Source of the DNA: Heterotrichella gracilis
Taxonomy: Eukaryota; Sar; Xanthophyceae; Tribonematales; Xanthonemataceae
Reading direction: 5' to 3'
NCBI GenBank assembly: GCA_032358255.1
Contig: JAULBX010001003.1
Location: 62,001 to 126,000 of the forward strand
DNA: 64,000 nucleotides
Each line of letters starts with the position of its first letter. Position 1 is the first letter of the stretch. This document shows positions 175-61,458 of the stretch, in pieces. Both the position numbers and the translations under genes were made by a program. The notes below the pieces were generated by a model. It had not been told where the DNA came from and ran no database searches. It saw nothing but the letters and a program-made list of their open reading frames with translations.

Positions 175-3100
175 GCACCACCGCCGTCCCCCTTGAGATC
201 CGCAAGGCCGCGCTGGGCTCCATGCGCCGCCTGCTACCGCGCATGCAGCTGTCGGGCCACGCATCGGCGGTGCTGCACCCCTTGCTTAGGGTTCTGGATG
301 GTCCCCACGACGAGCTGCGCAAGGATACCCTGGACACTGTGTGCTCGCTGGCGCCGGCGGTGGGGGCGGACTTTGTCATCTTTGTGCCCACCATTCGCAA
401 GGTGAGGGGGGTGGAACGGGTGGCTGGGGAGGGATTTGGTGCGATGGGGATGGTGGAGAATGTGTGTGCTCGCGGGGTGTGGCTGTGGGAGGGGAGGTCA
501 TACTCAACACTGCATTTTTTGATCAGGTTTTTATAGCCCACCAGGGGACTGAGTCAGCGTAATAAGGGTGTAGTGCTCAATCCCTTTTTTCCCTGCTCCC
601 AGATTGTGCAGCGCCACCGCCTGTCCCACGACCGCTTCAACCTGCTTGCCTCCAAGCTGCTCCTGTCAGAGCCCCCCTGCACCAGCGACGTGGAGGACTG
701 GGAGGCGGCCAACGCGTGGATGGATGACCTCATCCCGCCTGATGCCGATGCCGCGCTCAGGCTGCTGGCGGAGCCGGCAGGTGGGTGGAAAGTACCCTAA
801 TGCAGGGTTTAGGGTGTCTGGGGATATTACAATGCACATTTCTGGGGGGTGAACCCCATCTCAGGGTTTGGGGATGGCAATGGTTCATGATGCGGGTCCT
901 GCATGATAAATGTATTGCTAACCTCGTGAACTTGCGCCACTTCACAACAACGCCTGCACTGCAATGTCTATTGGCCATTCTCCCCAATACCACCACACCT
1001 GGCCTGACACCCATCTCCCGACCACCCCCCAGGCCCCCCCTCCGCCCAGCGCCATGTGGTTAACGAGGTGAGCCTGCGTCGCGCCTGGGAGAGCAGCCAG
1101 CGCAGCACCAAGGAGGACTGGGCGGAGTGGATGAGGCACTTTGCGGTGGAGCTGCTGCGGGAGAGCCCAAGCCCCGCGCTGAGGGAGTGCACGCGGCTGG
1201 CGCAGGTGGGGTCTAGGGTTTGGTTGAGGGTTTGGTTTGGGGTTTAGGGGTTGCGGTGGAGCTGCTACAGGATCTGCCTGTCTGGATGCAGCATGGCAAA
1301 AAATACGGGTTACATCAGCTCTCCCCCCCGTCTTATCTCAAATCCATTATCGCTTGCAGATGCAGCTGACCACAGTACTCACCTCTCCCCTTCCAATTTT
1401 ACAATCACCCTCCTCGTTTCTGGTTTTTACTCTACCCTCGCTCCAGCCTACCCCTGGCACATTCAACACCCATGTATCTCTCTCTCCCTCCCCGTCTCCC
1501 CCCTCCCCCTTCTCCTCCCCCCGCTGCAGATGCAGCCCACCATGGCCCGCGACCTCTTTCCCGCCGCCTTCGTCTCCTGCTGGTCAGAGCTGGAGGCGGG
1601 GGCGCAGGAGGCGCTGGTTCGCTCCCTTGAGGCCGCGCTCGCCTCCCCCACCATACCCCCTGAGATTGTGACCACGCTGCTCAACCTGGCGGAGTTCATG
1701 GAGCACGACGAGAAGAACCTGCCGCTGGACTACAGGTGAGGGTTTTGGGTAGGGTTTGGTTACAGTCTGGGGTAGGGTTTGGGGTCGGCATGTGAGGTGA
1801 GTTCATGGAGCACAACGGGAAGAGCCTGCCGTTGGACTACAGGTGAGAGGGTGGGTAGGGTCTGGTTAGGGTCCGAGGTCGGGTTAGGATTTAGGGTAGG
1901 GTCTGGGTAGGGTCTGGGTTTTGCTGTTAATCTGGCAGGTGCAGAGCTGGCGGATACTTTTGCTTGGCTACGCCCATTGCCCTTGCACCGTACAGGGCGC
2001 CCTGCAAAGATTTTGAAGCAAGCACCTCTGAACCATAAATCCCAGCACCATACCTTAGGCGCTCTGGCCAAGAAATGACATGCGTGTGCCAAGGCGCTGC
2101 ACTAGTAAATGCTCTGCCGCTGCCAGATTTTCCACACCATTTTTTTGTTTTTGAAAACCCGAATTCCGCCCTCCACAGGACCCTGGGCGCCCTTGCCGAG
2201 AAGTGCCACGCCTTTGCCAAGGCGCTGCACTACAAGGAGCTTGAGTTCCAGACCTCGCCTCAGACTGCGGTTGAGGCGCTCATCTCCATCAACAACCAGC
2301 TGCGGCAGCCCGAGGCGGCGGTGGGCATCCTCACCATCGCGCAGCAGCGGCTGCACATGGAGCTGAAGGAGTCCTGGTACGGACCCTAGCTAAGGGTATT
2401 TGCATATAACAAGTAGGGTATTTTCTAGGGCATACTCACCATCGCGCAGCAGCGACTGCACGTGGAACGAAAGGAGTCGTGGTAGGAACCCTAGCATTAG
2501 GGTATTTGCGCCTAGCGAGTAAGGTATATTTTGGGCGTGGTAAGATGTTGCCCTAACCCATTGGGCAACCATAACGATGCGCTTTAGGGTATATATTTCG
2601 TCGCCTACTGCATGGAGCTGGTATTGTTAAGAAGCCTAGGAAACGCCTCCACGGTGTCCATAGCCAATACCCCAGGCGTACATTCCGGCATCATTGGCAG
2701 CAGCATCGTAGTGTAACGCTCAACCCTTGGCTTTTGACGCACTCCCCCTCCCCCTCCACCCAGGTATGAGAAGCTGCACCGGTGGGAGGATGCGCTGGAG
2801 GCATATGAGCGCAAGCTGGCGGCAACACCCGCGAGCTCACCGGCACACGTGGAGGCGCAGCTGGGCAGGCTAAGGTAACGGTGTAGGGTTTAGGGTTTAG
2901 GTTTTAGGGAGGGAATGGGTGGCGGGGAACAGGCTCACCGGCACACGGGGAAGCACAGCTGGGCAGGCTGAGGTGAGGGTGTAGGGTGTAGGGTTTAGGG
3001 TGGGAATGGGTGGTCTACCATTGCTGCACATCGGCCCTGGATTGCTGTCACCAACACAGCCATCAACCCACCCTCGCCGCCCTGCACAGCCCTGCCGCCC

Positions 3101-6100
3101 CCCCTCACCCCCCCACCACGCACACCCTGCCGCAGGTCCATCGCCGAGTGTGAGGCGCCAAAACCCTAAAACCTGATCCTTAAACCCTAAACCCCGCCCC
3201 ACAGGTCCCTGGGCGCCCTGGCTGAGTGGGAAGCGCTGAGCAAGCGATGCGCCAGCGAGTGGCGCCTGGTGGAGCCACATGTGCGCAGGGAGATGGCGCC
3301 CGTGGCTGCGCACGCCGCCTGGCACATGGGCCAATGGGGGGCGATGGCGGAGTATGTGGGGGCCATGAGCAGTAGCGGGAATGCTGAGAATTCTGTTGGG
3401 TCGTTCCTGCACGCCGTGCTGTCTGTGCGGCAGGGGGAGTACGACAGGGCGAGAGGTGAGGGGGGTGGGGCGAGGGATGGGGTGGGGAGGACAGTGTGAG
3501 TGGCGCCTCTTGTTGAGTGTCAATGGGAGGTGATGGGGGCGCATGGCAGAGGAGCACATTTTGCTGAGGAGGAGGAGATGGTAGCTACATGGCATTCCAA
3601 CATTCCCAACATTGGCCTCAACTGCGCCTCACACCGTCTTTGATATTACAAGAACCTGTTATATCTTAAGCGTCTCTGTCATCCCACCCCCTGCCCTCCC
3701 GCTCCCCACCCTCAACCCTCCCCAACAGTAGCATCCATTTGTAAGTGTCCTCACACCCCTGCACTTCCCTCTCCCCCTCACTCTCCACTCCATGTGTAGC
3801 GCTCTCGCAAGCTGCCATGGCCTTCAATTTTTTTAGTGTCCTCCCCCCCTGCCCTCCCCCTCCGTCAGTCCACATGAGCACTCCCGCGAGTCGCCATGGC
3901 CCTCACAACAAATTCAAATATCTTCAAAGTTCCCTTTTTTTAAGTGTCCTGGCACCCCTCCCCTCCCCCCCTCAGTCCACATGGAGCGCTCCCGTGAGCT
4001 GCCATGGCCAAAATGACTTGTAAATGTCCTCACACCCCTGCTCCCCCCCCCACCCTCAGTCCACGTGGAGCGCTCCCGCGAGCTGCTGGGCACCGAGCTG
4101 GCTGCGCTAGTGGGCGAGAGCTACGAGCGCGCCTACATGGACATGGTGCGCGTGCAGCAGCTGACGGAGCTGGAGGAGGTCATTGACTACTCGCTGGCGC
4201 CCCTGCTGTGCAACGGTAAGGGTGGGGGGGGGGGGGGATGGGCCGTAGGGGGGGGGGGGTTGGTCCCTGACTAGTCGCTGGCGCCGCTGCTGTGCCATGG
4301 TAAGGGTTGGTGCGGGTCGGGTCTGAGATGTGAAGGGCAATTGTTTTGCGACGGGGGGCACTTCCTGTGGGTTTGGGGACGCAGCTGTCTTTTTACTCAT
4401 CATACAACCTGCAACACCATCTAACTTGAAATAAACGAACCATTTGTATACAAAAGGAGTATCACTGTGTATTGGGCTGTAGAAAACGTGCACAAGACAC
4501 CTCAATATTCTTGGAATGCCTTTGAACATCTGCAATCTTCCCAAACCCCTACCCAAGTCCTGCACCCCTTGCAGGGGACGCCGCCGCCGCCGAGGCCCGC
4601 CGAGCCCTCACACGCGACATCTGGCGGGGCCGCCTGCGGGGCGTGCAGCGCAATGTGGAGGTGTGGCAGGCGCTGCTGTCTGTGCGGTCGCTGGTGCTGC
4701 CGCTGCAGCAGGACCAGGCCTCGTGGCTCAAGTTTGCCACGCTGTGTAGGAAGCAAGGGAGGGTGAGGTGCGTGGCGGGGGCGGGAGTTGGAGTTGGAGT
4801 TGACGGGGGTTGGAGTTGACGGGGTTTGGAATCGTTGGGAGGGGTGGGGAAACGGACTTTTTGTTGAAGCAAAGCGTGCGATGCAGGTTTTGATGGAGGT
4901 CATGGCGGCAGCGCACTGCAGTGAAAACATGAAAAAAGAATTGGGGAAAGGGTATAAATCATGGGAATTAAACAACTTGAATGATGGGGAAAGCAGGACC
5001 ATAGGCATCCTTTTCCGCGGGGCCACAACCTGCACATCCCGCCTCCCCTGACCCGCCTCCCCCACCCGCAGGCAAAGCCGCCGCACCCTCCTCCAGTTGC
5101 TTGATTACAACCCCCTGGACATTCGCTCGGAGGGGACGCCAGGGTATGGCGCGGGCTCGGGTGCACCCACAGTCATGTTTGGCTTTCTGAAGCACCTGTG
5201 GGCGACTGGGGACCACAACGAGGCGTTCCACAGGTGAGGGGTTGGGATGGGGTGATGGCAGGGTTTGTGTAAGTTGGTGGGAGGGTTCCCTGATGAGACG
5301 GGGGTATGCACATGAGTTTGTATTGGTTGCTTGCCTCCCGATTCTTTGTGCTGGGTCCATGCCCAGGCTCGTGTGTTGGAACGGGGCATGCGGGTTGGTG
5401 TTGCAACTAGAAAAACAGCACAATTAGTGATACATCTCCTACCACCTCATGCCTCACCACCACCACCTCCACCACCACCACCACCACCATCGGTCCCAAA
5501 ACCCATGGCCGCTCATCCCTTCCACTCCCTCCCCCTACATCCTCCTGCACCCACCCCACCCCACCAACTCCCCACCCACCCACCCCGCAGGCTGGTTGAG
5601 CTAGCGGAGGAAACCCTAACCCTGCCCCCCGAGAAACCCCCACTGGACATCACTGCGGGGCAGGTGCTCCCAGGGCTCATGGGATCAATCCAGGCGGCAA
5701 CTGCCATCCCTGGTCAGGCCTCCACCTACACGCACCCCCTGGCGGCCAGGGTGCACCTGCGGCTGGGGCTGTGGCGCTGGGCCATATCGGAGGTGAGGAC
5801 TAGGGCTTTTAGTAAGGGTTTTGGTAGAATTTTGGGCGATGGTTATGCATAGGGTGCACCTGCAGCTGGAGCTGGGGTGCTGGGCATATCAGAGGTGGGT
5901 GCTAGGGTTTGTGATAGGGTTTTGGGCTAGGGTTTCGGATAGGACGAGGAGATGACTGACAAGGTAATGCATCGCGTGGTGCAGGAGGTGTCTACCTTAC
6001 CAGCCCAACTTTACCTCCACCCCACTGCCGCCATCCCAAAAGAAAACTGTCACCCTCTTAACCACACAGCAGACGACCCATCCCCTCATGTGACTCATTA

Positions 6101-9100
6101 TCAAAACACCTCACCCCACCCGCAGGAGATGACTGACGAGGTCATCCGGCGCGCCCTTGAGGAGATGTCCACCTCCACCCGCACTGCACCCGAGTGGGGC
6201 AAGGCCTGGCACCACTGGGCGCTGTTCCACGTGGCGGCCATGGACCACTACGCAAAGGTGCACGATGCAGCGGGGGCGCAGCGCCACGTGGCGCCAGCGG
6301 TGACCGGCTTCTTCAGGAGCGTGGCGCTGAGCCAGAAGAACGCGGGTGGGTGGTGGTGGTGGTGGGTGGGGTAGGGTGTGGTGGTGATGTGGAGTGGTGA
6401 TGGTGGTGGTGCAAGGAAGATCATCGTTTTGGGATGGGGTTGGTAAGGGTCTAAAAGTTCAAGCTGAAGTCAGCTGCACATCTTGCCCATGTACGTGCAT
6501 TTCACTCTCCCATTTGTGAACCAATACCCCGCCATCATGTAGACCAGAACCCCCATGACATCCCCTCCTGACACCCCCCATCCCCATCCCCCCCCTCCAG
6601 GTGCCGCCGGTACCACCAACCTGTCCCTCCAGGACATCCTGCGCCTGCTCACCCTGTGGTTCACACACGGCAGCACACCGGACGTGGAGCTTGCCCTAGA
6701 GCAGGGCTTTGACAGGGTGGCAATTGACACATGGCTGGTGGTCATTCCACAGGTGCGGGGCAAACCTTAGGTTTGGCTTTGGGGTTTCAGTTGTGGTTAC
6801 GTAGCCATAGATACCTGGCTGGTGGTCATACTACGGTACATGTGGGGCGCACCCTAAGGGTCTAGCGTAGGTTTTCATTTTAGGTTGTCATGTTGCTTTT
6901 TCCCTAGGTTTTCTGAGCACCCTTGCTTCCCCCTCCCATACAAGCACCCCCTTGCACACTCCCTACAAACACCCTCCCACCCCCCCCCGCAGGTCATCGC
7001 CCGCATCCACACACCCACCATTCCGGTGCGCCGCCTCATCCACACCCTGCTTGTGCGCATTGGCAAGCACCACCCGCAGGCGCTCATGTACCCGCTGCTG
7101 GTGGCCACCAAGAGCCAGAGCAACGTGCGGCGGGCAGCGGCTATGGCGGTGATGGACAACGTGCGACAGAGCTACCCCACACTGGTCGAGCAGGCGCAGC
7201 TGGTAAGAGGGTGGTATACAGGGTTTTGGACAAATCCCGCTATTTTGCTGCGTTTACAGCGGGTACAAAGCTTTGGTCCTAGTGTCAGGGTATAGTTATT
7301 GCCCTAGGAGGGTTTTATGTATGGGCTGTGATGGACAACGAGCTACCCCACCCTGGTGGAGCAGGCGCAGCTGGTAAGGGGTTGATATCATGACAAATAG
7401 GGGTTACGGTTGGGTGTCTAGGGTTTGGGGCCAGGTTTTCAAGGGTTTAGGGTAGCTGTGATGACAACGTGCGATAGAGCTACCCCACCCTGGTGGAGCA
7501 GGCGCAGCTGGTGAGGGGTGGTGAGGTTTTGGGGTTGGGTGTTCGGGGGTTTAGGGCGATGATGGACAACATGAAGCAGGGCTGCCCCACACCGGCCCAG
7601 GCTCCAATCAAATCCACGGCTTTCTGTACGTTGCCAAACCCTGCTTAAAACCTACCAAACTCCTCGCAAACCCCACAGGTGAGCGGCGAGCTGATGCGCA
7701 TGGCGATTAGCTCCAATTGCCCTTTTCAAACCCTACCATACCCTACCAAAACCCTGTTGGCAAACCTCCACCCACCCCACCCCACCCGCGCAGGATCGGC
7801 GAGCTGATCCGCACGGCTGGAAGTTCTAATTCCCCTTCCAAACCCTACCAAGCCCATTTCAAACCCTATCAAAACCCCTGTCAAAACCCTGCAAACCCCC
7901 CCTTTGCAGGTGAGCGGTGAGCTGATCCGCATGGCCATCCTGTGGCACGAGCAGTGGCACGAGGCGCTTGAGGAGGCCTCAAGGCTGTACTTTGGGGAGA
8001 GCAACGTGGTGGGCATGCTGGGTGTGCTGCTGCCGCTGCATCAGATGATGGACACGCAGGGGCCGCACACGCTCAAGGAGATTGCCTTCGTACAGGTGAG
8101 GGGTTGGAGAGGGATATTGTGCTTGTCAAGCTTGATTATTTTAGTGTTTCTTCCAGTTAATAGTTCAAAATCAATTTGTTGATAAGCACTAGTTAGCTAT
8201 GAAAGTGGAATAATTGCTGGCTTGAAACATATTTACCAAAAAAATCAACCGAGACCAACTCCCCCCCACACACACACACACACGCACACTCTCCTTCCCT
8301 CCAGGCATATGGGCGCGCGTACGACTGGTGCATCAAGTACCAGACCTGAAAGCATCTAGCTTGATCTAACCTGATTTAAGCCAGTCGAATTCCAATCAAA
8401 ACCAATTCTCCTGCCCCCCAGGCCTATGGCCGCGAGCTGCAGGAGGCGTACGACTGGTGCATCAAGTACCAGACCAGCCGCAAGGACTCTGACCTGCACC
8501 AGGCCTGGGACCTGTACTACCACGTATTCAAGAGAATCAACAAGCAGCTGCCCAGCCTCACCGTGCTGGAGCTGCAGTACGTGGCGCCCGCACTGGTCAG
8601 GGCACAGGTGAGGGTTTGATGTAGGGTTTGGGTAGGGGTTGGTTGGTGGCATGGTAGGGCTCAGTACGTAGCGCCTGCGCTGGTCAGGGCACAGGTGAGG
8701 GGCCGGGCAGGGTTTGCAGTAGGGTTTGGGATGAGGACGGTGCCAGGGCTACAATATGGTCTGGTAAGACTTTGGAAGGGGTTGGATGGAGGCTGGAGTA
8801 AGTGGCACACTTGCGGTTCTTGGCACATGAAGGGCTTGCAGCCAAAGCAACAAGCTGTGATCAATGCACAACCCTTGTGCCTGCAGTGGCAGGATCTAAA
8901 CAAGCAGGGTCCATACCTCACAATCCCCCAACCCCCGCCAACCGTTTTTGCTCCATCCCCAGGGCCTGGAGCTTGCTGTCCCCGGAACCTACATCGTTGG
9001 CGAGCCGCTTGTCACCATCGCCGCCTTTGCGCCTCAGCTCCAGGTGATCACATCCAAGCAGCGGCCGAGGAAGCTGACTATCCAGGGGTCGGATGGGGCG

Positions 9101-44031: not shown

Positions 44032-44450
44032 CACTCCTTCCATCTGTTGTGTCACAGGCCCCTTACCAGGTAAGTTGAAAAGGGATATCTGAGGGTGGGT
44101 GCATATAGTTGGGTTAGTGGCTGGGGATGCACTACCATCCCCAAATGGGTCGCCTCTCTTTTCATGCATACTCCTCTATTCCTTGCTTGTTGACCTAGAA
44201 TCTGTGGGTGTTCGTTGCAGGTATTGGTTTGTAAAGCATTTGCTGGCTCAAGCTGGGCAGGACACTGCAGATGAGCTGCCTCTGATGAGCCACAATTTTG
44301 CCTCACAGCGACCAACCACGGAGACCCCTGTACGACTTCATGGCTGCGGTTGGGCGCACGCTGGGGTTTGTCAGCGTTGTTTGGCTCCTATTTTGCCACA
44401 GGTAATTGAGTACTCAGTGGTCTGGCAAGGCAGGCCTGGGTGGCACAAGC

Positions 44451-44485
44451 TGATCACTGATCACTGATCACTGATCACTGATCAC
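44451..44485. repeat. Perfect TGATCAC x5 tandem repeat
   Basis: Five exact 7-base units, each a palindrome centred on the GATC core, so the whole tract reads almost the same on both strands. Single strands could fold into several hairpins. Confidence 0.95.
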
Positions 44486-44707
44486 ACGTGATGTACGGGG
44501 TTACGCCATGCACCCGTTGAAAGTTGAAATCGACATTGGAAAATTGGGTGGTGCCTTTGGCTGGGCAATTCAGACACCCAGGCCTGCATTGTGTCCTGTG
44601 TTGTGAGTAATTCCCACCTGTCTTTCTCATTCTTACTGCTGCTTGGCACAGGAGGTGTGGCATCGCATTGGCCCACCAGGGGAGGCCTGCGGCAGCCGCT
44701 GTTCAGT

Positions 44708-44872
44708 GCACCTGGGATTGGGCGGTTGAAATAGTGCCGTAAGGACATGTTGTAGTTGCAGGTGCCTGGGCAGCGTAGGCCAGCTGCCATGTGCTACAGC
44801 CTGTTTCATCAACACCGGGTCCCCCTGCAACATGTCCTTGCAGCACTGTTTCAGCCGCCGAACCCCAGGTGC
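44708..44872. repeat. Imperfect inverted repeat, ~47-53 base arms, 65 base loop
   Basis: Left arm 44708-44760 begins gcacctgggattgggcggtt; right arm 44826-44872 ends gccgccgaaccccaggtgc. They pair over about 47 bases with a few mismatches and one small bulge. Both arms translate in the same sense on opposite strands to QHVLxALFQPPNPRC. RNA from either strand would form a long hairpin; it may be a relic of a small foldback element or of a locally inverted duplication. Confidence 0.8.
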
Positions 44873-45976
44873 AGGAGTCTCACAGCGGTGTTCAGGTGGC
44901 GCCCGGAGCTGTGGGATGCTGCCAGCTGGCACCAGGTGTGGCGTGGCTTGAACCAGTACGGCCAGGAGGGGGAGCCAGTGGGGGCAGTGATTCATTTCAA
45001 CAGCCATTGCAATTGCAGGCTGAGCCTGGTTATGCATTTCAAGCGTCACGCACGGTGCTGACATAATATGGATACTGCCAGTTGTTTACACGGTGTTTAC
45101 CAGATTGCAAAATCTGTTGCTAGTCACCAGGTGCCTTCAGCAGAGTATGTGTGTACATGCATTCAATGGACTTCTCCAACTTGCCGTGGCCATCATTTGG
45201 TGCCACTGGCAGGTAGTATTATATCACCAGGTAAAACTTTCCCACAGCAGCCACAACGTTGACCATTCAATTTCTTTAGTAAGTAAAGTAAAATATAGGG
45301 GGACGCGGACGTGGGGCAGAAAACCTGCACAACCAGTGCCCAGGAGACCACCAGCAGCACTGGCACCAGATGCAACACAAATGAGGGCATGGTATTGCTA
45401 CACGTCCATCGTGACGATACCACTGGTATGGTATGGTATTTTTAGCTGCTATTCGTTTTATGATGAGATATGATTAGCCTGCAGGGCAATCATGATTTCA
45501 GTCTCAGACTGCCAGCCTGGGCGGATGTGCACACATCATGTGGATCTTTGCGGCACTGCATCTGAGGAATGCACATATTCCATGACTCAGAGTGGACATG
45601 ATGGACTGTGTGGCGCTTGTGACACCTTAACAGTTGACTTATACCTTGGTGTACATATTTACACACAGTGCCCGCACTGCAGCAGCCGTGGCAGCTTGTG
45701 CCTGTAAAGCGGTCTGGAGATGACATGTGCATGCCATCATTACTGTGGATAATCCATTGAATTAAAGGTACACTGGCAATATGTCCCTAGTCTAAGAACA
45801 GGCTACCAACATCATTGATGATCACGGATGAACCAGGGATCTGCAAAGCACCTAAGCTGCCCATGCCTCCCCACACCCCAGTTTCCCTCTCCTAGCAATC
45901 CTCCCTCTCTTTGCCCCATGATTGCGTACTGCCAGACCAGCCATGCAACATGCACATCCTGAATGTCCCTCGCCCA

Positions 45977-48900
45977 TCACTCCTCCTTCTTGCTCACGAT
46001 TGCGTACACCGGCTCTGTGGTGACCCCACACCCCCGCCGTGCCTGGGCGATCTTGACGTACCCGCCATCACCCCAGTGCGAGGACCAGGAGTTCCTGAAA
46101 GAGGGAAAGGACAGGCATTATCAAACTGACCACTGCAGGGTTGTTTCAAAGATTAATCAATGATAATTTAGCTGCCCAGGGATGGTGTACATTCTATGTC
46201 CTATTTAAAGCCCAAGAGGACAAAGTTGGACCCGATACATCCCGCTTTCTCTCGTCTTCTTCCCTCACCTGGTTGGCCAGTACAGCTTCACCTCTTGCTC
46301 CCATATCCCACCAGGGTCGCTGCTTTGGGACTAGAGCATGAACTGTCCCCAGGAGGACTACAACACGGATTGTGCTAGTTTAATCTCCCTTTTATACCAC
46401 ACTTCCCTCCCCTCCTCACCTGATCAGCCAGTAGCCATTCCCGTTCTCACTCCCATACCCTACTAGGGTAACCGCATGGTCCAGCTCATCCGGCCGCCAC
46501 GCGCACTTGGGCTCGTCATACAGCCCCCTCGCGTAGAACCTAAAGGAGGGTTTGCTGGCATCTATGGACACAGCGATTGGCCCCCGGTTCACCACGGCCT
46601 CCTTGAGTGCATCGATGTCGTACTTGGGGATGTTGACGTAACCCTGTGGGGTTTTGGGGGGAGGAAGGGGTGAGGATGGGGTGGAAAAACACTGTAAGGT
46701 TCTGGGGAAAGCATTGGCTTTTTGTGTTGTAATGGTATGCATGAAGGGTTTGCATGCTGCCTATTCGGGTTGTGGAGGGGCGAGGGGTGTAGGTGGTGGA
46801 CACCACACAGGAGACCCTACCCTGGAGCTGACGGGTGAGTTGTGCTAGGGCTGCCTTGGAGCAAATGGTAGTGCTTCACGGGATTTCATGCAGGCATGGT
46901 GCCCGCTTAGGGTCAAGGGTTTGACACAACGTGGCTCCCTATATTGTGCTGGAAAAGGCTGCAGAGTGACGCAGCAGCTGGCTCACGTTTTGGGCCACCG
47001 GGGGCGATGGGATGCCTGGCAAGGGGATTTATGAGCGCCATGGGTGTGGTGGTGGTGGGTGTGATGGTGGGTGTGGGAGTGGTAGTGGTGGTGGTGGTGG
47101 TGAGGCAACGGCCCTAAAAGCTTTCCAAAGCACGTAACCCACACCCTCATTGCCGCAAAAGCCAATGCATAAACCCTTTCATGAAAAAGGACGAAACCCT
47201 TGCAAATGCTGGGCAGAGAGGAAAACAGCAGCATAACAATGGATTCAAACTTGTCACCGCATCATCCCCTTCCATCCACCGATGCGCACATGCACGCTTC
47301 CCCCCCACCTTGAACTGCACCCGCTCAGTGGTGGTGTTTGCATGGCACATCCCATCCTGCCCCAGGTAGGGGTACTCATCCTCGAATGCCGCCCCCCCCA
47401 TGTGGTGCAGGTAGGCAATGGCAGGGCCGTAGTCGCCCCCGTCACACGCCATGTTGGCACCATAGTCCCAGCTGCAGTCCATCAGCTGCTGCTCGGAGAA
47501 GGACGCCTGGCGGCCTGCGGGGTAGGGGGTGGATGGTGGTTGAGGGGGCGGTAATTTGGGTGGGTGAAGAGGGGTGGGTGAGGAATTGTTGGTAGAGGGA
47601 AAGGTGGTTTAGCAGTTCAAGCTGCAGTCCAGGAAGAAGGCCTGGTGGAATGCAGGGTGTGTGGTGTGTGGTGGGTGGTGAGGGATGGAGAGGACGAGGT
47701 GTGAGGGTACCACCTAGTCAGAGATGGACGCAATGACGCCGCACACACAGCCAAATTAAGCGCTGCATCCCTCCCTTCTTCCCACACTCACACCCATATT
47801 GAATGGCCCCTGCGTCCCCACCCTTCCATCCGTCCCCTATCCATCCACCGCCCCCCACTGCCCCTTACCCCTCCCCACCCACCTGTCGCCATGTAATATG
47901 CCCCCTGCATGGCCCCAGTGGCCCCAAACGCCCAGCACGACCCGCACACCGCCTGGTCCTTCACCCCTGGACCCTCAGCATCGGTGCCCCGCCAGCTGTA
48001 CTCAGCAGGCAGGTGAGTCAGCTCCGTCAGGGCGACATGTGGCAGCTCAGCGGCGACCACAGCAGGGTCTTGGCTAGGGTTTTGGGCGGGGTTCCCGGCG
48101 GCCCGGGCCGCGGCGTTGCGGCGGCGGTTGGGCAGCATGAGGGTCTCGTACTCCTCCTGTGGTTGCAGTAGAGTACAATAGGGTTTCCGCAATTTCTATA
48201 ATCAAGGTGCTGGTAGCGGGTTGTATACAATCAAGGTAGATGTAACAATTGCATAGACCAACACGTTCAAACTGGTGCTGCCAACCGAGCCTTTCAGCTG
48301 GACCCTTTCCTATAAAGGGCAGGGTCCACTTTACAACCCCAAACTAAAAACTCTAAACCCTAAACCTAACCCCACCTGTGTCCAGTCAGCGAAGCAGTTG
48401 AGCCTAAGGATGTGGGTGCAGTTCTCAATTCCCCGTTAAACCTACTTTTTTTAATACAAAAGTTCACTAAACCCTGAACCCTCACCTGTGTCCAGTCAGC
48501 AAATCGGTTGAGCCCCAGGGAGTAGGTGCGGTTCTCCTCCCCGTTCCACCGCTGTATCATGTCCACGTTGCTGTAGTACACGTTGCGCCTCAGGCGGTAC
48601 TCCTCAACGGAGGCGTGGGACCGCAAGTGGAGGGAGGAGAAGGAGTCGTACTCCTCGTCGCGGCCTAAGGCAGGGGCACGGGGTCAATGAGATTAACTGA
48701 TGGATGAAACTGCACCTTTCATACAACAATGCATATGTGTTTGCTTGTGCATGTGCATCCCCCATCTACAGTACCTTCCGTAGTGTGTGATTGCAGATGC
48801 AGTAATTATTTCAAGTGCTGTGTGATGATAGCGAGGCATGGCATTGCACAACGAGCATTCAAAGAAGTTAAATCTTCAAGTCTGATCATCTTCTTAGATT

Positions 48901-51097
48901 TCAATAGAATCGTACTCCTCGTCGCGGCCTGGCGTAGGGACACAGGATGATTGAATGGAAGTGCACCTTCACCTTTAGGATAAGCCCATGCCTATGCCTA
49001 AGATGCACGCTTTTTTGGTGTCTGGCGTGGAGGAACACGCCCTGTGTGTGTGTTGTGCCTGGCCGCCACCTGTGGGCATTTCCTTCAGTTCCTTTCTTTT
49101 CTATGCCTTTGCGTTCGATGTGCATGTGCATGTGCAGCTCTCATCTACAGTGAGCATTGATCTCCTATTATTGGTGTGCATGTCCATGCCACAATCCTAG
49201 CCCAAACCCTACGTTAGGGTACTCACCCAAGTGCGCAAAGGGCGTGAGGGTGCCCATCTGCATGGACAGGCTGGAGGGGTTGGTCACAGACACTGGGGAT
49301 TGGCCGAGGCACTCATTGGGGACCAAAAACATGTCTTCGTCCACTGGGCCAGGGGTGTAGGATGTGTAGCGAACCACGTACTCATCTGTGGAAACATGGG
49401 CTTGCATTTAAGATTGTTTTCAATCCCCAGTTGGACCGTCATATAAAAGGTAGCTAGCAAATGTCTTCACTTGCATTCACTTGCATGCAACATGCCCTGT
49501 GGAAGTCACACCCATGCTTCTAGCCACTACTACACACATGCAACCCTTGCGTGCATCTGGAAGACACAACAGTGGCGTACCAAAACATGTGGCCATAGAT
49601 GCATGTTCAAGGAGAGCGTGAAAGGAGTCTTTTTGAAAGGAGTCATTAGCCACTTTGCTGCACGCCAGAAGGGCTCATCAGCGCACTTGCTGATGCAACG
49701 CAACCTAGTAGGCCTGATTAGTGCCCACCAAAGCAGGCCATGGCAGGATCAAATGCTACACTTTGGGGAAATCACAGGTGTGATCATTTTGGTCATGCGC
49801 ATGCGATTTGGACCCAAGGCAGGTGAGAGGATCAAGAGGGTGGGAGGGAATCGCACCAAAATGCGCCCCTGTGAAAATGTCGTTGCCGTGCATGTGCAGG
49901 CGCAGGGGGGCATCATCCATGGTGGCATAAAACATGTAGCGCACATGCTTGTGCCCGTGCCTGCAAGCATGTTGTTGGTTAGAAGTAGGGTACACAGGGA
50001 TGGATGAGTCTACGTGGCTGTACCTGTAAACATGATGGGTGAGTGGATGACTACGAGTTGAATGGATGACTACGAATGGACATGGCGAACGCGTGTGGGT
50101 GGGTGTTAAAATGAGTATTGAATCATTCAAGGTGTGGACAACCGATAATGATTTGTTGTATGATAGAAATACAAGGTATCAGCGTTGATTCATTGCTGTG
50201 AACATTGTTGGATCATCCATCATGCAGGCCCTGCCATAGACCATAAGGCACTGCCACCACCACCACATGCCGTGCAAACCGCCATCACCACCATCACCGC
50301 ATATCAGCCCCCACCCCCTCACGCCCACCCCACCTCTCTTCATGCACCCACAGCCTTGCCTCCACCCCATCCAGCTCCTGCGTACCCTGGTACTCAAAAC
50401 CGCTCAGGTCGGGAAGAACCTGGGTGGGGGGTGAAGGGTAAATCGTGGGTATCACAAGCAAACGGTCTACACTGCAGCAGGACTGGGGTGGGTGGGGTAA
50501 AGGAAGGTTGTGGGTACAATAAGCAAAGGGTCTACACCCAATCAATTTCTATTCTCCAGTGGAGCTATGTGGTAGCGAGGGGGGTTGTGGGTCCAATTGT
50601 GCATCCAATACACCTGCAAGCCTTGAACAAGTTCCCCAGCCAACCACACTCGGAATTCGATGGCAATGATGATGTCATTATATTGAACATTGTGCCAGCA
50701 TGCACCCCACTCAGACAAGTATGGACATGCTACAGCTTCCAAGTTCCCCGCCATGTTTCCTCCCCACCTTTTGCGCCAGCAGCGCGTCATCGTCCCCTTG
50801 CATTTTCCACCCCATGCAGGTGGGGGTGGTAATGCGCGGGAACACCTCGTACTGGGTGCCCTGCAGGGCGGGGGGTGAGCGAGTGAGGGTGGGGAGTGGG
50901 GGGTGATGCGGGGAACGACCAGGTGCCTGTCAGTGCGTGTGTGTGCAAATACCCACACCCACTAGGTGGGGACCACACCACATATTGGTCGCTGCCCACC
51001 CACCTTCCCCCATTAGACCCTCACTCCTACATCCTAATCCCTTAATGATGAGGGCAATGCCAGAGCATATAGTCCGCCGCCCCGCCACCCCCCTCCA

Positions 51098-51136
<39 letters not shown>

Positions 51137-52737: not shown

Positions 52738-55700
52738 ATGGTCAGCCCCAAGTATCAGAGGCTGGGGACGGACGCGTTGGATGAGCTGGAGCTCGCAAAA
52801 ACCTCCAAGCCCGTGGCAAATGGGGCGCTGTACTCCAATGCAACGGTACGACGTACGAATAGCGCGCGTATTCCACGTGTACCCAACTCTTAGAGCGTAG
52901 AGCCCTTGATCGGCTCTGAACACTTTGGTTTTAGCTCATGATGAACGTCTGGTTTCCTGCAATGTGGTTTTCTAGTGCTGCTTTGGGCGCAAGGTGTGAT
53001 CCAAGGTTTTCGAAAGGCACGTTCCCATATGCATGCATATGCTCCACACGTCAAACCTTTGACTGCCATCCCGTCGCCCACCGGCGCCAACCCATTTGCC
53101 AACCCCAAACCCTACCCAAAACCCTCCTGTCCCTCCCTCCTTGCAGGTTCAGGTTGAGGGTATGCACTGCAGCTCATGCTCAAGTGCAGTGGAGAAGACC
53201 CTAAGGTAGGGTGACCGCAGGTAGTTAGTAGGGTATTTGCAATTGCAAGCACAGCCAGGCGAGTAGTCACTGTGGCACATATTGCGCCACCCATATCTAT
53301 TTTGCCAGGTCATGTACCATTTTTTATACTGGTGAGTTTCGAGGCCAGCTGTCTGCTTGCACTTGGAGAACCCCTTCTTGGCGTCCCACACGCAACCGAG
53401 TGCTGACCAATACATGCCACTCACATCCAGTGTGGCATGCTCCCGTTTGGTGCATTCATGCCCATGCCTGCACGGTGTGCACCTACATCCCCATCACAAT
53501 GCACTGGACACGCCACCGCTGCTACGGAGCTCGCAGCGCCACCTAAAGTTTTAGGGTAGAGTGAGGGGTAAAGTACAGCACACTTTGCACAGGGGGCAGT
53601 CTGCACCGCCATGTGACAGAATCCCAGAAAATTTCTCTCTATCGGGGGCCATGCCGCAGATTTTGTTTCGCATTTCCTGAGCCCTCGGGCCCCCCTTGTG
53701 CAGGAGCCTGTCTGGTGTGCAGAGCGCCACTGTGGACCTGCTGGCGGCACTGGCCAAGGTGGGGGAAATTACGTTAGCGAGTAGCTAGGGGGAGGGTGGG
53801 GACGGGGTGGGATGGGAGGAGTGCAGTTGACAATGTGGCGGGAGAGGGGTTGGGAAGGGCGGCAGATTGATGCATGTACAACGGCATGGGGGTTTGGGGG
53901 GCAGCAGACCAGTGCACTCTCAAGTGTGGGTGGGCGCCAAGGGGTGGAAGGGAGTGAGCTGAAATTTAGGGTCGCAGCATGGTGCACCCACCCTATCCCC
54001 GCACTGTTGTATAACTCCCCTGCCCTGCGTCTCTCGCCAGGTGGAGTATGATGGTGACATGGTCTCGATACAGGAGGTGCTGGAGGCGATTGAGTCAGCG
54101 GGGTTTGGGGCAACCCTAGATAGCGTGACTACCCCGCCCACAACTCTGCAGGTGAGCAAACCCTGCTGCAGGGCTTGGGCATGCTCATTGGCCTTGTGCG
54201 GTTCTCCCCTTCGTCTTAATATGAAAGTATTTGATCAAGATTTGAATTAAATCCCGCATGCGATCCTTTGAGACCCTAATAAAATCGTTGCACTGGATAA
54301 AACCGTTGCACGTAGGAAATGCACCGCACTCGCTGCTCTAAACACCCTTGCCCACAAATCCTACCCCAAAACCCTGCTGCAGGCTGTGCGCCTTGAGCTG
54401 GGTGGCTTGCACTGCTCTGCATGCAGCAGCGCGGTGGAGACTGCGCTAAGGGGGGAGAAGGGGGTGGTGAAGGCGGGGGTGGCGCTGGCCCTCAATGAAG
54501 CCAGGGTGGAGTTCGACCCCAGGGTGACGACAAAGGTAGGGTTTGGGATTGGGGGTGAAGGGTTTGGTTGCAGTACATTATTGAGGTGTCATTGGCGTTT
54601 GGTGATGGCTTTTGGGTTGTGTCCTGTGGTTGGCCGGCAAGGTTGTGAGATAGGGTGTGGTGAAGGCGGGGGTGAGGCTGGCGTTTAACAAGGGTAGAGT
54701 TTGACCCAAGGCTCACTATAAATGTAGGGTCAGAGTTGCTAGGGTTTGGAGTCTGGAAGTACTCATGTAGGGTTTTGTGGCGGCGCTAGCGCTCAGAGGG
54801 GCACAGGTAGAGGTTGGCCAGTATTTATTGCAGAGGGTATGGGATGTAGAGTTTGGGGTGTGGGTTGCGCTTGGGGGTAATGAGGTGCATGTGGCCTTTG
54901 ACTCATGGATGTCCTAGGAATGTTGTGGGAGGGGTGTCGGGTAGTGGTGTTCATGGCAGGACTAAACGCTGACTAAGGGTATGTGTTCATGGCGCATTCT
55001 TGCACGAAAGGAGCCCCAAACCCTGACCATGGGTTTTTCGCCTGCAGGAGGCGCTTGTTGCTGCCGTTGAGGATGCGGGCTTTGAGGCGCGGCTGGTGGC
55101 GGCGGTGGAAAGCGACGAGGTGGCGCTAAAGGTAGGGTTTAGGGTTTGGGTTCTCAGGTCAGGGTGGCTAGGGGTTGGTGCCTCTGGTGGCGGCGGTGGT
55201 GGAGCTCGACGAGGTGGCGCCCAAGCTATGTGGAGATATGGAGGCAGGTGAATCCAATGCAATGATTATTGGGACCCTAGCAAGGGTTTGGGGTCAACAT
55301 AGTCTTGGTCAAGTGAGGCAAAGTTGCGGGCATGACGTGCCGGGCCCTGCATGCCTGTCATTGCTCCTTTGGTTTGTCTTACTTGTAAAACATCTGTTCA
55401 TGGCCTGCCTGGCCATCTCCGCACCAGTCTCACACACCTACGCACAGGCACCCTCCTTCTCTTCCCATTCCTTGACCCCCCACCCCTTGCAGATCACGGG
55501 CATGACCTGCGGCTCATGCTCCGCTGCTGTGGAGCGCGCACTGGCGGCTGTACCTGGGGTGACATCGGCGGCAGTGGCAATCATGACACATACTGCGCAG
55601 GTGGGTGCACCCAAAACCCAACCCTGCTCCCTCTAGATTGCGCGTGTGGGTATCGTTACACACGGGGCGCAAGTGGGTGCCATCCTGAACCCTACAACTG

Positions 55701-58700
55701 CGTCGAAATGCGGGTGGGCAGCGGGGCGCAGGTGGGCGGCAGGGTGGACGGCCTGCAGGAGGTTGGGCGTGCACCACCCATGCAAAATTGTTGTGTGGCG
55801 ACCCAAACCACGCTTGCGCCAGGCTGTGGGTGATGGACCATATCCTCAAGGGTAATAAGATTATAACAGGTCCTATTGTTATCTGATTACCCTTGATATC
55901 CCGCACTGACCGGGCCTTATTTGGTGGTGCAATTCCTAGGACGTGCACCATCTCCCATGCTGCCCAGACTGTGCTTGCTGGCCCATTTTCAATATGTCCC
56001 GCATTCTTGCCTTTTGCAGGTGCATTTTGACCCCAGCGTGACGGGGCCTCGACACCTTGTGGCGGCGGTGGAGGATGCGGGCTTTGAGGCGGAGCCAATC
56101 ATTGGCAGCAGGTGGGTAGGGTCTGGCTGCGGTCCTTGGCAGGATTAGGGTTATGCAGCTAGGTTAGCAGGGATTGATAGGGGCTGAAATCAGGAACTGT
56201 CTGGCAGAGTTGTGTCTGACATGGTGACCTGACGCAGCCTTGTCCAACACAGGCAACACATATCATGCATGGCAGAAAACTGGCTAAATACCAATGAACT
56301 GCTGTTTACCGTACTTCAACCACAACTGCAATCTGAGGAAACCTGGCAGATCCTTGACCCCCAACCCCTATCCCCAGGGATCGCGTCCGGGACCACAGCC
56401 GGGAAGACAGCGCCCAGTGGTGGCACCTCTTCAGGTCATCCTGCACCTTCACCATCCCCGTCTTCCTCCTCGCCATGGTCTTTCCCTGGGTTCCGGGCCT
56501 CAAAACTGCCATCAGCGTTCAGATCCTGGGGTTCCCAATCAACGAGCTGCTCAAATGGGCCCTGACCACCCCCGTGCAATTTGTGATCGGCTGGCGGTTC
56601 CACCAGGGGGCGTACAACGCGCTGAGAAACGGGAGGGCCAATATGGACGTCCTGGTCTCCCTGGGCACAAATTCCTCCTATTTCTACTCCCTCATCTCCA
56701 TTTTACACCACCATTTCGCGATGCACCACGTGACCGGGAACTACACCCCCACGGATTTCTTCGAGACCTCCGCCATGCTGATCACCTTCATCCTGCTGGG
56801 GAAGTATTTGGAATCTGCCGCAAAGGGGAGGACATCGGAGGCCATCACTGCACTGCTGAACCTGGCGCCACCCCTGGCCAAGCTTGTGACCCTGGATGGC
56901 GAGGGGGTGGTGGTTGATGAACAGGAGATCCTGACTGCGCTGGTGCACAGGGGGGACGTGCTCAAGGTGGGTGGGGAGGGGAGGGGTGAACTGGCGGGTT
57001 GGAAGGTGGCGGTGGTGTGTGTGTGGTGTAGTTTGTGCACATGTGTGTCTGGGTGGTGGTGTGATGGTGGCAATGGTGGTGGTGGTGGAAGTGGTTGGTA
57101 ACAGGAGATTCTGACTGCACTGGTGCACAGGGCGGACGTGGGCAAGGTGGTGGGCGGGGTAGGGAAATGGGGGCTGTGGTGGTGGCGGTGGTGTGTGTGG
57201 TTGTGGTGCTGGGCTAACAGGAGATCCTGACCACCCTAAAACCCTGAACAAAACCCTTCCATCCTCGCAGGTGCTCCCTGGCGCGCGAGTCCCCACAGAC
57301 GGCGACCTGCTATCCCCAGCCGCCCACCTGGACGAATCCATGATCACGGGGGAATCCGCCGCGGTCCCCAAATCCAGCTCTGGGCCCGACCGCACCGTGT
57401 TGGGGGGGTCGGTAAATGCTGGGGGCGCATTTCTGATGCGGGCCACCAGGGTCGGGTCGGAGACAGTATTGGCGCAGATTGTGGGGATGGTGGAGGATGC
57501 ACAGGCAGGCAAGACCCCCATTCAGGCGGCTGCAGACGCTGTTTCGGCTGTGTTTGTTCCGGTGGTGGTGGCGCTGGCGGTGGGCACGTGGGCGGTGTGG
57601 TGAGTGGCGGCGGCGGTGGTGGTGGTGGTGGTGGTAATGCTGCTGTCTAAATACACTGCCCTGTGTGGCGCAGATGCTGCTTGAGTAACTTAAAACCTCT
57701 ACATCTAAATAATGTGACATTTACATTGATATATGTTTTGTTTTGGTAACTTGAGCCTGGCTACCTGCTCATTGATGCTCCTCAAGTTCTTAAACAACCC
57801 CAAGGAAAACCCTAACAGAAACCCTCTCCTCCACACGTATATGGTCGGCCTGTGCGACATGTACCCCGCCACCTGGCTGCCCTCCTCCAAACCCTAAACC
57901 AAACCCTACACAAACCCTCTCCACGGCAGGTACATGGTCGGCTTGTGCGACATGTACCCGGCCACCTGGCTCCCGCAGGGCGAAACCCTACACAAATTCT
58001 ACAAAACCCTAACAGAAACCCTCTCCACCGCAGGTACATGGCCGGCCTGTGCGACATGTACCCCGCCACCTGGCTCCCCGAAGGCCACACAAAATTCCTG
58101 TTCGCACTCCTCTTCGGCATAGCGGTCCTGGTGGCCGCCTGCCCCTGCGCCCTCGGGCTTGCCACCCCCACAGCGGTCATGGTGGCGACGGGGGTGGCTG
58201 CCACTAATGGGATTTTGATCAGGGGGGGCGACGCGTTTGAGCGCGCGGGGAGGGTGCGCACGGTGGTGTTTGACAAGACGGGCACGCTGACGCAGGGCAA
58301 GCCGTCGGTGGTGGCGTCGTGGGTGGTGGACCCTAAGGTAGGGTTTTGGGCATCATGGCTGCCATAATGCCATTTGGTATGGCAGGGGTGGGGTTGGGGG
58401 TGCAATCGGGGGTGTAATTGCTCTGCGCATGGTGAGAGGCTGTGGTGTTTCCTGTGGTTGCTGTGGAGGTTGAGTACCTCTGTAGCAGTGCGAGTGTGCC
58501 ACTGGCACTAGGCTTGAAGCCTCTTTAGCAGAGTGTACATATGAGCCCATTTGCACCCATCACCCATCCCCTTCCTCTCCTTTCCACCCACTCCCCTTCC
58601 CCCTTGCAGCTTTCGCTCCCCGACATCCTCCTCGCGGCCGCCTCCCTTGAGGCATCCAGCGAGCACCCGCTGGCTTCAGCCATCATGGACTGTGCACACA

Positions 58701-61229
58701 CCCACTGGACCCTATCCCACCCCCAAGAACCCACCGCCTCTGGTGCCGGTGCTGATTCGCCTGGCCCTGATTCGCCTGGCGCTGAGTCAGAGGCGTGGTC
58801 GGCGGCGTGGTCGGCGCCAGGTGGCGACGAGTCAGGGGGGTGGACGGCGGGGGGGAAGCAGGGGGTGGTGGGTGGTGGGGGCAAAGCGGGGGGTGGGGGC
58901 CGGCGCATGGACTGGCTGCGGCAGGTGTCGGAGGTGGAGGTGGTGGAAGGTGGGTGGTGGTGGTGGTGTGGTGGAAGGAAGGTTTGGTGTGGAAAATCCT
59001 GGGGATTGTGGTTTGGTTGATGTAATGGGGATAGGGAGCATTACATATGGAAGGCCCATCATGATTGCACATCCTAGATAGGGTTGGGCAAGGCGCAGAA
59101 AACCCTACGTAAGGGTGTATGGATGACACCCTACCCTGTGCTATCCTGACAGCTGCGTCCCCACCTCTCCCCCCACCCTCCATCAATGCGTGTTGCACCC
59201 CCACTGCAGGTGCTGGCGTGCGCGGGTGGGTACAAATGCCCCACCCCTCCTTCTCGTCGCCCCCCACCACCCCCACCTCCGCAGCCGCCACCCCCCACCA
59301 GGTGAAGGTTGCTGTGGGCAACAAGCGGCTGATGGTTGAGGAGGGGGTGGAGGTCATTCAGGAGGTGGATGAGTACATGCGGGAACAGGAGGTGGGTGCG
59401 GGGTGGGGGTGCGGAGATAGGGGGTAACTGCAAAGGCGGGATGACGCTTTTTGTAACACATATCTTTGTGGGGCTAATTGATGTGCTTTCTATTGTTCCA
59501 ATGCTGCAGTCTTACCCATTGTCAACTAGTGATACCTCCGACCCACAAAGATGTGCACACATCACAAAGATGGTCACTGGATCTGATCCTGCCAGATTTT
59601 CCTGGTGATCACTCATGTTCGCATGAAGCATCAAAACTGAAGCAGGGAAAAAAATGTCAAGAACGCACAAAGCGCCCGGCCCTGCATCAACCAATCTCTT
59701 CATCCCTCGCATTCACACGTTTGCAATCTCGCAGAACGGCGGCGCCACCTGTGTGCTGGTGGCAATGTCCGGCCGCCCCGCCGCAGTGCTTGCGCTGTCA
59801 GACGCAATCAAGCCTGAGGCGCGCGGTGTGGTGGCGGCACTGACAGCTCGGGGCGTGCAGGTGCGTAAACAACCCCATACCATACACAGTACAGTTCTCC
59901 ACTCAAAGTTACAAGATTTATGCACAGTGACCCATCCATTGGTGTTGGTAGTTGATCAACGACTGGGTAGCCGAACCTATCTGCTATGCTGCAAAAAGCA
60001 AACATCATGTAAGTCTGGTTTACTTTGATTTTGGCAGATCACATCACCTAGGCTCACCAGTCTTACATATGATTCCCCTCCCGCTGTGCCCGCAGGTGTG
60101 CATGGTGACGGGCGACACCTGGCGCACAGCCCGCGCGGTGGCGCAGCGGTTGGGTGTGGGGAGCGTGCTGGCTGAGGTGCTGCCCTCAGGGAAGGTGAAG
60201 AGGATCAAGGTGCGGTGGGAGGGGGTGGGGCCTGGCAGGGTGCTCTGGACGGGCGGAGAGGAACGGGCACGTTCATTGATAGCTGTGCGATATGTTATGT
60301 AATGAAGCATTGTGCTCATTGCTGAGAAATCATATGTGGCTCACTTTCATATTTCTTGCAGTTATGTCCTCGTTGGGAGCTTTGTTCGAACTGCAAAATT
60401 GTACATGTGCATCACCTGCCTGTCTGTTGTAGTACGACACCCCTTCTCATTACCGCAATTATTTCCCACTCCCCACTGCAGGAGCTCCAGCAAACTGGCA
60501 AGGTTGTGGCCATGGTTGGGGACGGTGTGAACGACTCACCCGCCCTGGCGCAGGCCGATGTGGGCATTGCCATTGGCTCGGGTACAGATGTGGCCATTGA
60601 AGCAGCGGACTTTGTGCTCATGCGGTCAGGTAAGGGGCAGGCTGTGGTAGTGGAGACAGTGGACAGAAAGGCGATGCCCTCTGCTAAATTATTGCGTTAT
60701 TGCAGCGCACGTGCTTTATTTTTTTTCAGCTGGCTGCATGACAGCTTTGAACGGAGTGAGCGAATCATAGTCCAATGATAACTATTGTATACACTTTCAG
60801 TTAATAGCACATTGCACATTTGTTAAATTTATTCTGTTTATCGCTTCCTCATATGTCTAATTTTTTACTTTATTGTTCATTGTTTAATTCATTATTTGTT
60901 AAATGATTTATTCTGTATATTTTACCTCCGACTTATTCATTATTTTATTCCCGCGCGCAGACCTGGAGGACGTGCTGACCGCCATCGACCTGTCGCGCAA
61001 GACCACCGCGCGCATCCGCCTCAACTACTTTTGGGCCATCGGCTACAACGCACTCACCATCCCCGTGGCAGCGGGCGTGTTCTACCCCCTGCTCCACGTG
61101 CAGCTCCCCCCCTGGATGGCGGGCGCAGCCATGGCGTTCAGTTCGGTGAGCGTGGTGATGTCATCCCTGGGGCTGAGGGGGTACCGGCGGCCGCCACCTG
61201 TCATGCGGGAGGTGGCGGTGGGCAGCTGA
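52738..61229 (+). CDS. Copper-transporting P1B-type ATPase (HMA/CCC2/RAN1-like)
   Basis: Seventeen exons in continuous frame give 1,056 residues: 52738-52845, 53148-53206, 53704-53758, 54041-54151, 54383-54535, 55048-55131, 55493-55600, 56020-56111, 56378-56966, 57271-57599, 58034-58337, 58610-58949, 59210-59391, 59735-59860, 60096-60209, 60482-60629, 60961-61229. Three N-terminal metal-binding domains carry GMHCSSC, GLHCSAC and GMTCGSC. Then eight membrane helices with the ion-path CPC ([15 protein letters not shown]), the actuator DESMITGES, phosphorylation site [12 protein letters not shown], the P1B-specific SEHPLA, MVTGD and hinge [20 protein letters not shown]. This set defines Cu(I)-type pumps that load copper into the secretory pathway; three HMAs and ~1,050 residues fit CCC2/RAN1 rather than plastid PAA types. 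A Gly/Ser/Pro-rich insertion follows SEHPLA. Introns are full of exon-edge copies. Confidence 0.95.
54640..55720 (+). repeat. Donor-side echoes of three metal-binding-domain exons of the Cu-ATPase
   Basis: After exon 5, 54650-54730 repeats its last 85 bases with indels (gtggtgaaggcgggggtgag; gagtttgacccaaggctcac). After exon 6, 55170-55235 repeats its end (ctggtggcggcggtggtgga). After exon 7, 55645-55690 repeats its end with donor (acacggggcgcaagtgggtg). After exon 9, 57100-57150 repeats its end (caggagattctgactgcact), and 57218-57238 starts another copy. Confidence 0.8.
57836..58080 (+). repeat. Three tandem copies of an acceptor plus exon start before the CPC exon
   Basis: Units of about 95 bases begin with aaaccctaacagaaaccctc-type tracts and end with the exon-11 start. 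Copies of the [15 protein letters not shown] codons lie at 57838-57886, 57931-57979 and 58035-58080. Only the third continues into the exon that holds the CPC motif. The second has a normal cag acceptor; the first has lost it (cacacg). Confidence 0.9.
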
Positions 61230-61357
61230 GGACACGCAAATGGGGAGATGGGCCTGTGGGTGGGACACAGCGTCGCGACCCCAGGTACTATACTCTGGGG
61301 GAGATGGGAGGAAAAGGGGGGAGATGGGAGGAAAAGAAGGGGCAATAGAGTTCATTC

Positions 61358-61458
61358 GCCATGGCGTTCAGCTCCGTGAGCGTGGTGATGTCATCCCTGG
61401 GATTGAGGGGCTACCGGCGGCCGCCACCTGTCATGGGAGGTTGCGGTGGGCAGCTGAG
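61358..61458 (+). pseudogene. Duplicate of the last 100 coding bases of the Cu-ATPase, including the stop
   Basis: atggcgttcagctccgtgag at 61361 matches 61131-61150 with two changes, and similarity runs through gtgatgtcatccctggg, ccggcggccgccacctgtca and the stop region (gtgggcagctgagg). Lies 130 bases downstream of the true stop, in what is probably the 3' UTR. The copy has a small deletion in the final codons. It is an exon-end duplication without an intron. Confidence 0.85.

Follow-up and report, generated by a model that had tools for sequence, protein, structure and literature searches.

Degraded exon-edge copies in the introns of Heterotrichella gracilis and their association with the telomere repeat

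How introns lengthen is the question raised by a 64,000-nucleotide stretch of the genome of Heterotrichella gracilis (Xanthophyceae), part of contig C12 (GenBank JAULBX010001003.1) and referred to here as the window. Some of its introns contain a decayed copy, in direct orientation, of the edge of an adjoining exon, termed an echo in this study. The original prediction, made from the sequence of the window, had listed about twenty such places in four genes and suggested that introns grow by repeated local duplication across splice junctions. The present analysis covered the window and 22 ten-kilobase loci, in total 284 kb of one genome (assembly of 68.5 Mb in 903 contigs, GC content ~55 %). 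Exons were predicted ab initio with a small self-trained hidden-Markov gene finder, the last training round of which comprised 443 introns with the consensus MAG/GTRNG and CAG/G. Because the finder at times read an echo as a tiny exon, exons of <36 nt were merged into introns in the gene models. This gave 361 introns; the test set comprised the 343 of 80-2000 nt that contained no N, and the other 18 were left out.

Exon-edge copies and the telomere repeat at intron ends

The last 100 nt of each exon were compared with the downstream intron and the first 100 nt with the upstream intron. Echoes were about equally numerous at donors (35/343) and acceptors (33/343). The same templates matched introns of other genes in 1/1715 and 0/1715 comparisons, respectively, and shuffled introns, the control proposed with the original prediction, in 0 and 0 of 1715. 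Reverse-complemented templates gave one match at each side (1/343 and 1/343). Among exons 200 nt or longer, the end away from the neighbouring intron never matched it (0/88 on both sides), compared to 11/88 and 6/88 for the near end. By these controls the copies are in direct orientation, close to their source and specific to the exon edge next to them, as in tandem genomic duplication. The copies also carry the splice junction, a further trait of such duplications: 57 of the 68 reach to within 10 nt of the junction, 28 of the 35 donor copies span it (GT kept in 25, donor dinucleotide unchanged in 26), and 20 of the 33 acceptor copies do so, with AG kept in 15 of these 20.

An echo was present in 60 of the 343 introns and any local repeat pair in 81, so that the earlier description of introns as built from such copies was overstated. 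Echo-containing introns made up 16/72 in the window and 44/271 elsewhere, and 22 of the 67 gene models had an echo. As had been proposed, this is a property of the genome, seen in unrelated genes on both strands and in 14 of the 23 sources; one locus (L023) was rich in echoes (10/15 introns), and nine sources had none. The dense serial copies reported earlier were found at 12 of the 68 echo edges, which had two or more copies, but the remaining 56 had one. The median identity of exon and echo was 82 %, which together with the spread over 14 sources argues against mis-assembly, a concern raised with the original prediction.

The places listed in the window held up well. When each of the 20 intervals was compared with its own 500-nt flanks (Smith-Waterman), it outscored all 500 controls, with scores of 15.2-80.8 and a top control per interval of 10.6-20.0, and in the alignments the partner segments held exon bases for 20/20 intervals. 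In the gene models 17 of the 20 were intronic and 16 counted as echoes. Interval 55645-55690 was intronic but under the echo threshold, and 57100-57150, 61361-61458 and 36800-36865 were called mostly coding by the gene finder, so that these three copies are only possibly intronic. An ungapped self-scan of the window gave 19 local repeats after low-complexity filtering (32 before) and none in each of five Markov shuffles. The window and sampled loci together gave 141 local repeat pairs, at least six of them counted double as locus L004 sits within L029, and again none in each of five shuffles. The gene names of the original prediction were borne out by Pfam domains for TOR (FAT, FRB, PI3/PI4 kinase), the copper-type P-ATPase (three HMA and E1-E2) and the papain-family protease (Peptidase_C1, I29); the glycosyltransferase-like protein had no Pfam match.

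Seven contigs carry (TTTAGGG)5 within 10 bases of their start, and TTTAGGG is therefore the telomere repeat of this organism. Introns of at least 300 nt had heptamers of this repeat at a density of 26-41 per kb over their first 40 nt but of 0.4 per kb at 60-80 nt, and the complement CCCTAAA was concentrated ahead of intron 3' ends. In exons the telomere heptamers occurred at 0.15 and 0.54 per kb. The organism's own telomere repeat thus forms internal tracts at intron ends, as in interstitial telomeric sequences; in echo-free introns the placement was the same, only weaker.

The telomere repeat predicted echoes. An inward telomere word at an intron end was accompanied by an echo in 30 of 106 ends, compared to 38 of the 580 other ends (odds ratio 5.6, p 1.6e-9). 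The link survived a within-gene permutation (17.8 expected compared to 30 observed, p 2e-4) and was also present in the loci beyond the window (p 2.3e-6) and after omission of L023 (p 2.6e-5). Generic G-quadruplex potential or G-richness as the driver was rejected: intron ends of G-quadruplex type lacking telomere words had no link to echoes, and two further types of run that match the telomere words in frequency, GGTGGTG/GGGTGGG towards 5' intron ends and CCCACCC/CCACCAC towards 3' ends, were likewise unlinked (one echo in 44 GGTGGTG ends). Pairing of the two intron ends as RNA was also set aside: it was slightly stronger for the real ends (mean -29.2 kcal/mol) than after swapping (-27.4 to -28.3 kcal/mol), but telomere words at the two ends of an intron did not co-occur (p 0.48).

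For three of the 68 echo rows the best alignment after extension lay outside the exon, and the boundary analyses used the other 65. In these the telomere word was located in the scanned 40 nt ahead of the copy start. In 20 of the 34 donor cases the sense side of the gap carried the G strand, in three the C strand and in 11 no word; among the 31 acceptor cases the C strand was present in 13 (10 alone, three with G), G alone in one and no word in 17. A telomere word lay between copies in 26/49 cases and after the last copy in 18/49.

A check independent of gene models gave a similar picture. The pattern CAGGTR followed 2-30 nt on by GGGTTTAGGG occurred at 1343 genome sites (reversed control 3), and CAGGTR followed 2-30 nt on by CCCTAAACCC at 1080 (reversed control 7). 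Among the matches listed (100 of 1343 and 100 of 1080, merged to 90 and 87 sites), same-strand neighbours within 300 bp numbered 11 among the 90 sites (0.23 expected) and 12 among the 87 (0.18 expected), many of them 85-118 bp apart. Five of these 23 neighbour pairs fall in already sampled loci.

Origin of the echoes

Unit geometry was determined from 35 units no longer than 140 bp, at exons of 100 nt or more. The unit was 105 bp (quartiles 85.5-113), with medians of ~43 nt for the exon part and ~57 nt for the position of the join inside the intron, and uniform placement of the units was rejected (p 2.8e-6, a 20-nt detection limit being allowed for). Over all 68 rows the median offset was 113.5 (quartiles 100-172), the offsets being wider because some matches skip a decayed copy. 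The offset remainders 0, 1 and 2 occurred 26, 17 and 25 times, i.e. without frame bias. A young array in L023 (6230-6750) shows the unit clearly, with 104-bp copies that all have a TTTAGGG tract at their end. An array in L029 (7960-8400) may be a repeated small exon plus intron and was not used as support. The median intron length was 380 nt with an echo compared to 276 nt without, a difference of about one unit. This agrees with the proposed growth through recurrent tandem duplication of local sequence spanning a splice junction, as far as the lengthening of existing introns is concerned; intron gain is beyond what is seen.

The comparison of exon and echo divergence that had been suggested earlier gave, per site, 0.108 differences at first, 0.098 at second and 0.227 at third codon positions. 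If the exon is selected while the echo drifts, more differences are expected at third positions; the ratio was ~2.2, and up to ~2 is predicted for a neutral echo beside a selected exon.

On balance, the echoes are probably fossils of recurrent small tandem duplications that straddled splice junctions, arose by fill-in repair and may have had their rate raised by telomere repeats. A duplication of ~105 bp would straddle the junction, after which the exon-side copy would stay in use under purifying selection and the other, within the intron, would decay neutrally. As the duplicate is left inside the intron, the intron would lengthen by about one unit. The duplications may result from fill-in end joining of staggered breaks, with nicks ~100 nt apart on opposite strands, a route to small tandem duplications that is established by experiment. 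According to the groups of Puchta and Bennetzen, paired nicks reportedly give such duplications in plants, and natural rice insertions are said to look alike. A telomere repeat near the intron-side end of the unit may raise the rate by drawing telomere-type end processing, for which CST/Pol alpha fill-in or telomerase is a candidate. A G-strand telomere tract near the tip of a 3' overhang would be a natural CST substrate, and the tract is placed as this predicts. For mammalian cells, the available part of one study describes small tandem duplications that form when CST-Pol alpha fills in the 3' overhangs left by paired nicks (PMC8355091). Matches to TERT domains exist in the genome, as do Ku-domain matches on contigs C380 and C771; the match on C771 contains stops and may be bacterial. 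The fuller proposal of telomere-guided intron growth, in which telomere repeats would mark staggered breaks that are filled in and rejoined in ~105-bp junction-centred steps, is tentative and at present doubtful.

Several observations weigh against this account. More than half of the echoes (38/68) are at ends without an inward telomere word, and units with and without telomere words share the same geometry, so the telomere repeat does not set it. The inward bias of the words is present in echo-free introns too, and when ends were divided by word direction (echoes at 28/100 inward, 5/34 outward only and 33/546 without a word), the outward-only ends differed significantly neither from those without a word (p 0.06) nor from the inward ones (p 0.17). 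A search of the genome for CTC1 (CTC1_2) gave no match, such a search being weak as evidence of absence. GGG was mildly enriched at exon-side boundaries (2.93 compared to 1.78 per position), which leaves room for microhomology, and microhomology may contribute. The model gives no cause for breaks on either side of splice junctions, and the centring of the units there might also come from selection on splicing. The evidence is the sequence of a single genome.

It seems unlikely that small tandem duplications simply fall evenly and that exon-edge pairs, one copy being conserved, just stay recognisable about twice as long. The third-position pattern does show a slower exon side, and intron-internal pairs occur (43 of 138 collapsed pairs), but even duplication does not lead one to expect junction-centred units, since those with more exon should be the easiest to see, nor a telomere word that predicts echoes. 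Pairs were also few in unassigned DNA, with 5 in 91 kb compared to 43 intron-internal pairs in 107 kb (p 2e-7), a contrast that is approximate because unassigned DNA includes intergenic stretches, untranslated regions and unpredicted genes and because the 43 include secondary pairs belonging to a single array. Replication slippage or unequal exchange between short direct repeats (GGG-like in the exon, the tract in the intron), requiring no staggered break, would account for the GGG enrichment, and some acceptor copies pass, by eye, from exon into AACCCTAA at exon AAC or ACC. The signal is weak, however, other G-rich tracts such as GGTGGTG show no link, and slippage does not predict a narrow unit length, all of which makes it an improbable explanation.

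Retention of echo splice sites as functional decoys or alternative sites would fit the donor dinucleotide, which is rarely changed, but its conservation has p 0.15 against the ~0.81 expected from codon positions 1+2 (p 0.03 against 0.75), and with the lower retention of acceptor AG and the absence of frame bias we regard this explanation as very unlikely. Less credible still are introners, mobile introns that would here bear telomere-like inverted repeats at their termini: the placement of G-strand words 5' and of C-strand words 3' in the introns does resemble inverted termini, whereas the copies derive from the local exon, and intron-against-intron BLAST of the 284-kb sample gave 16 pairs at E<=1e-6 with a longest match of 66 nt. 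No introner families, i.e. similar introns at many sites, were seen in that comparison. That the echoes are an artefact of assembly or gene models can practically be dismissed. One L023 array is interrupted by an N gap and the exons are ab initio predictions, yet the repeats are visible without gene models and the identity of the copies is too low for duplicated reads. Small tandem duplication across splice junctions with fill-in repair thus remains the explanation we favour.

Features of the window and the sampled loci

The individual echoes and repeat pairs of the window are collected in the table.

Table. Echoes and related repeat pairs in the window (positions in the window)
Feature	Exon edge or first segment	Copy or second segment	Strand	Remarks
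TOR donor echo	1692-1782	1799-1888	+	telomere-like G-rich tract in between
TOR acceptor echo	2180-2232 (exon start)	2052-2104	+	
TOR donor echo	2323-2403	2428-2509	+	
TOR donor echo	2835-2901	2933-2999	+	
TOR acceptor echo	4018-4086	3938-4002	+	more degraded copies upstream from ~3737
TOR donor echo	4178-4237	4262-4321	+	
TOR intron 5748..6190	donor 5748-5835; acceptor 6124-6190	donor 5851-5938; acceptor 5947-6015	+	
TOR donor echo	6717-6782	6801-6871	+	
TOR intron 7146..7938, donor side		near 7340; 7455-7522; 7552-7600	+	serial copies
TOR intron 7146..7938, acceptor side		7635-7707	+	more copies towards 7860
TOR acceptor echo	8407-8475	8290-8346	+	
TOR donor echo	8564-8636	8652-8723	+	
Acceptor echo, minus-strand gene	18241-18304	18355-18417	-	absent from the original list
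114-bp tandem pair	36803-36867	36917-36981	-	copy mostly coding according to the gene finder
Protease donor echo	48467-48550	48353-48442	-	
Protease acceptor echo	48643-48690	48907-48954	-	
Cu-ATPase donor echo	54455-54542	54647-54730	+	
Cu-ATPase donor echo	55077-55134	55171-55228	+	
Cu-ATPase acceptor array 57806..58079	58003-58079		+	~2.8 copies of a ~100-bp unit, CCCTAAA-type tracts
Repeat pair	61131-61230	61361-61458	+	end of Cu-ATPase model; copy mostly coding according to the gene finder

Predicted intron sequence of the sampled loci contains other arrays: a degenerate ~69-bp repeat array without exon similarity in L017 (2457-3060) and a 93-bp tandem repeat of at least three copies in L032 (5363-5680). 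In the window, positions 25900-45000 hold a gene cluster on both strands that appears, from reading the sequence, to be of F-box/LRR type; a 1951-bp piece of it had 77 DNA matches across the genome. A perfect CTGATCA repeat of 5.1 copies, a non-telomeric heptamer, is located at 44450-44485. Loci L009 and L010 (contig C1, 894 kb) have a GC content of 36 % and long intronless open reading frames, which seem to resemble outer-membrane and TonB-receptor proteins of Bacteroidota; C1 is presumably a bacterial contig in the assembly. Several eukaryotic loci were likewise without repeat pairs, so the absence of pairs from C1 was given no weight as a negative control.

Known systems and significance

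Human introns derived from tandem arrays were reportedly described by Zhuo in 2007, and internal duplications by Gao and Lynch in 2009. That introns can be gained through tandem genomic duplication involving AGGT is accepted (model of Rogers 1989 as cited; reviewed in PMC3443670; PMC4974935, PMC2891723), with a Drosophila case (PMC2891723) and, in the potato RdRp gene, also an 83-bp tandem duplication within an intron (PMC4974935). As in that model, local tandem duplication with AGGT or splice sites alters intron structure here. In the cases described in the available parts of these papers, however, a new intron arises from duplicated exon, one or few at a time, whereas here existing introns lengthen, in 60/343, by a junction-centred unit of ~105 bp. 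The CST-Pol alpha duplications share with the echoes short direct tandem copies of tens to ~100 bp but followed Cas9-induced breaks in mouse and human cells, and the part of the text examined linked them neither with splice junctions nor with telomere tracts at the break (PMC8355091).

Interstitial telomeric sequences of horse and human, inserted at repaired breaks, are similar in having internal telomere repeats with duplications among the flanking changes (simple duplication at 3/66 horse loci, Table 5), according to the available part of the paper (PMC7215372). The intronic ones are there described as fitting random insertion, whereas the words found here occur only within ~60 nt of either intron end and are strand-biased. 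In introns of Chlamydomonas and Volvox, tandem repeats are reported to pile up towards intron ends; the ~105-bp exon-edge units are outside the range of that survey, as seen in part, because the units surveyed were 1-50 bp (PMC3887541). Introners, described as forming families of introns that resemble one another at numerous sites and as occurring chiefly in rapidly evolving lineages such as the green algae, likewise reflect a genome-wide process acting on introns (PMC9860276, available part), but no such family was seen here. In the open-licence literature searched (titles and abstract openings), nothing was found that dealt with exon edges copied in series or with telomere repeats located at splice junctions. 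The type of event, tandem genomic duplication, is thus known, and its density, geometry and telomere link were not found in that search; the telomere-repeat link and the ~105-bp junction-centred unit are also additions to the original prediction.

Lengthening of introns is usually inferred after the traces have vanished, whereas here the steps are readable in about one sixth of the sampled introns. The echoes offer a clock, in their decay against a conserved exon, as well as a geometry and a sequence predictor, and intron growth by tandem duplication becomes testable as a rate process. The results suggest a tie between telomere biology and gene structure. If true, telomere-type end processing at splice junctions would constitute a telomere-guided engine of intron growth.

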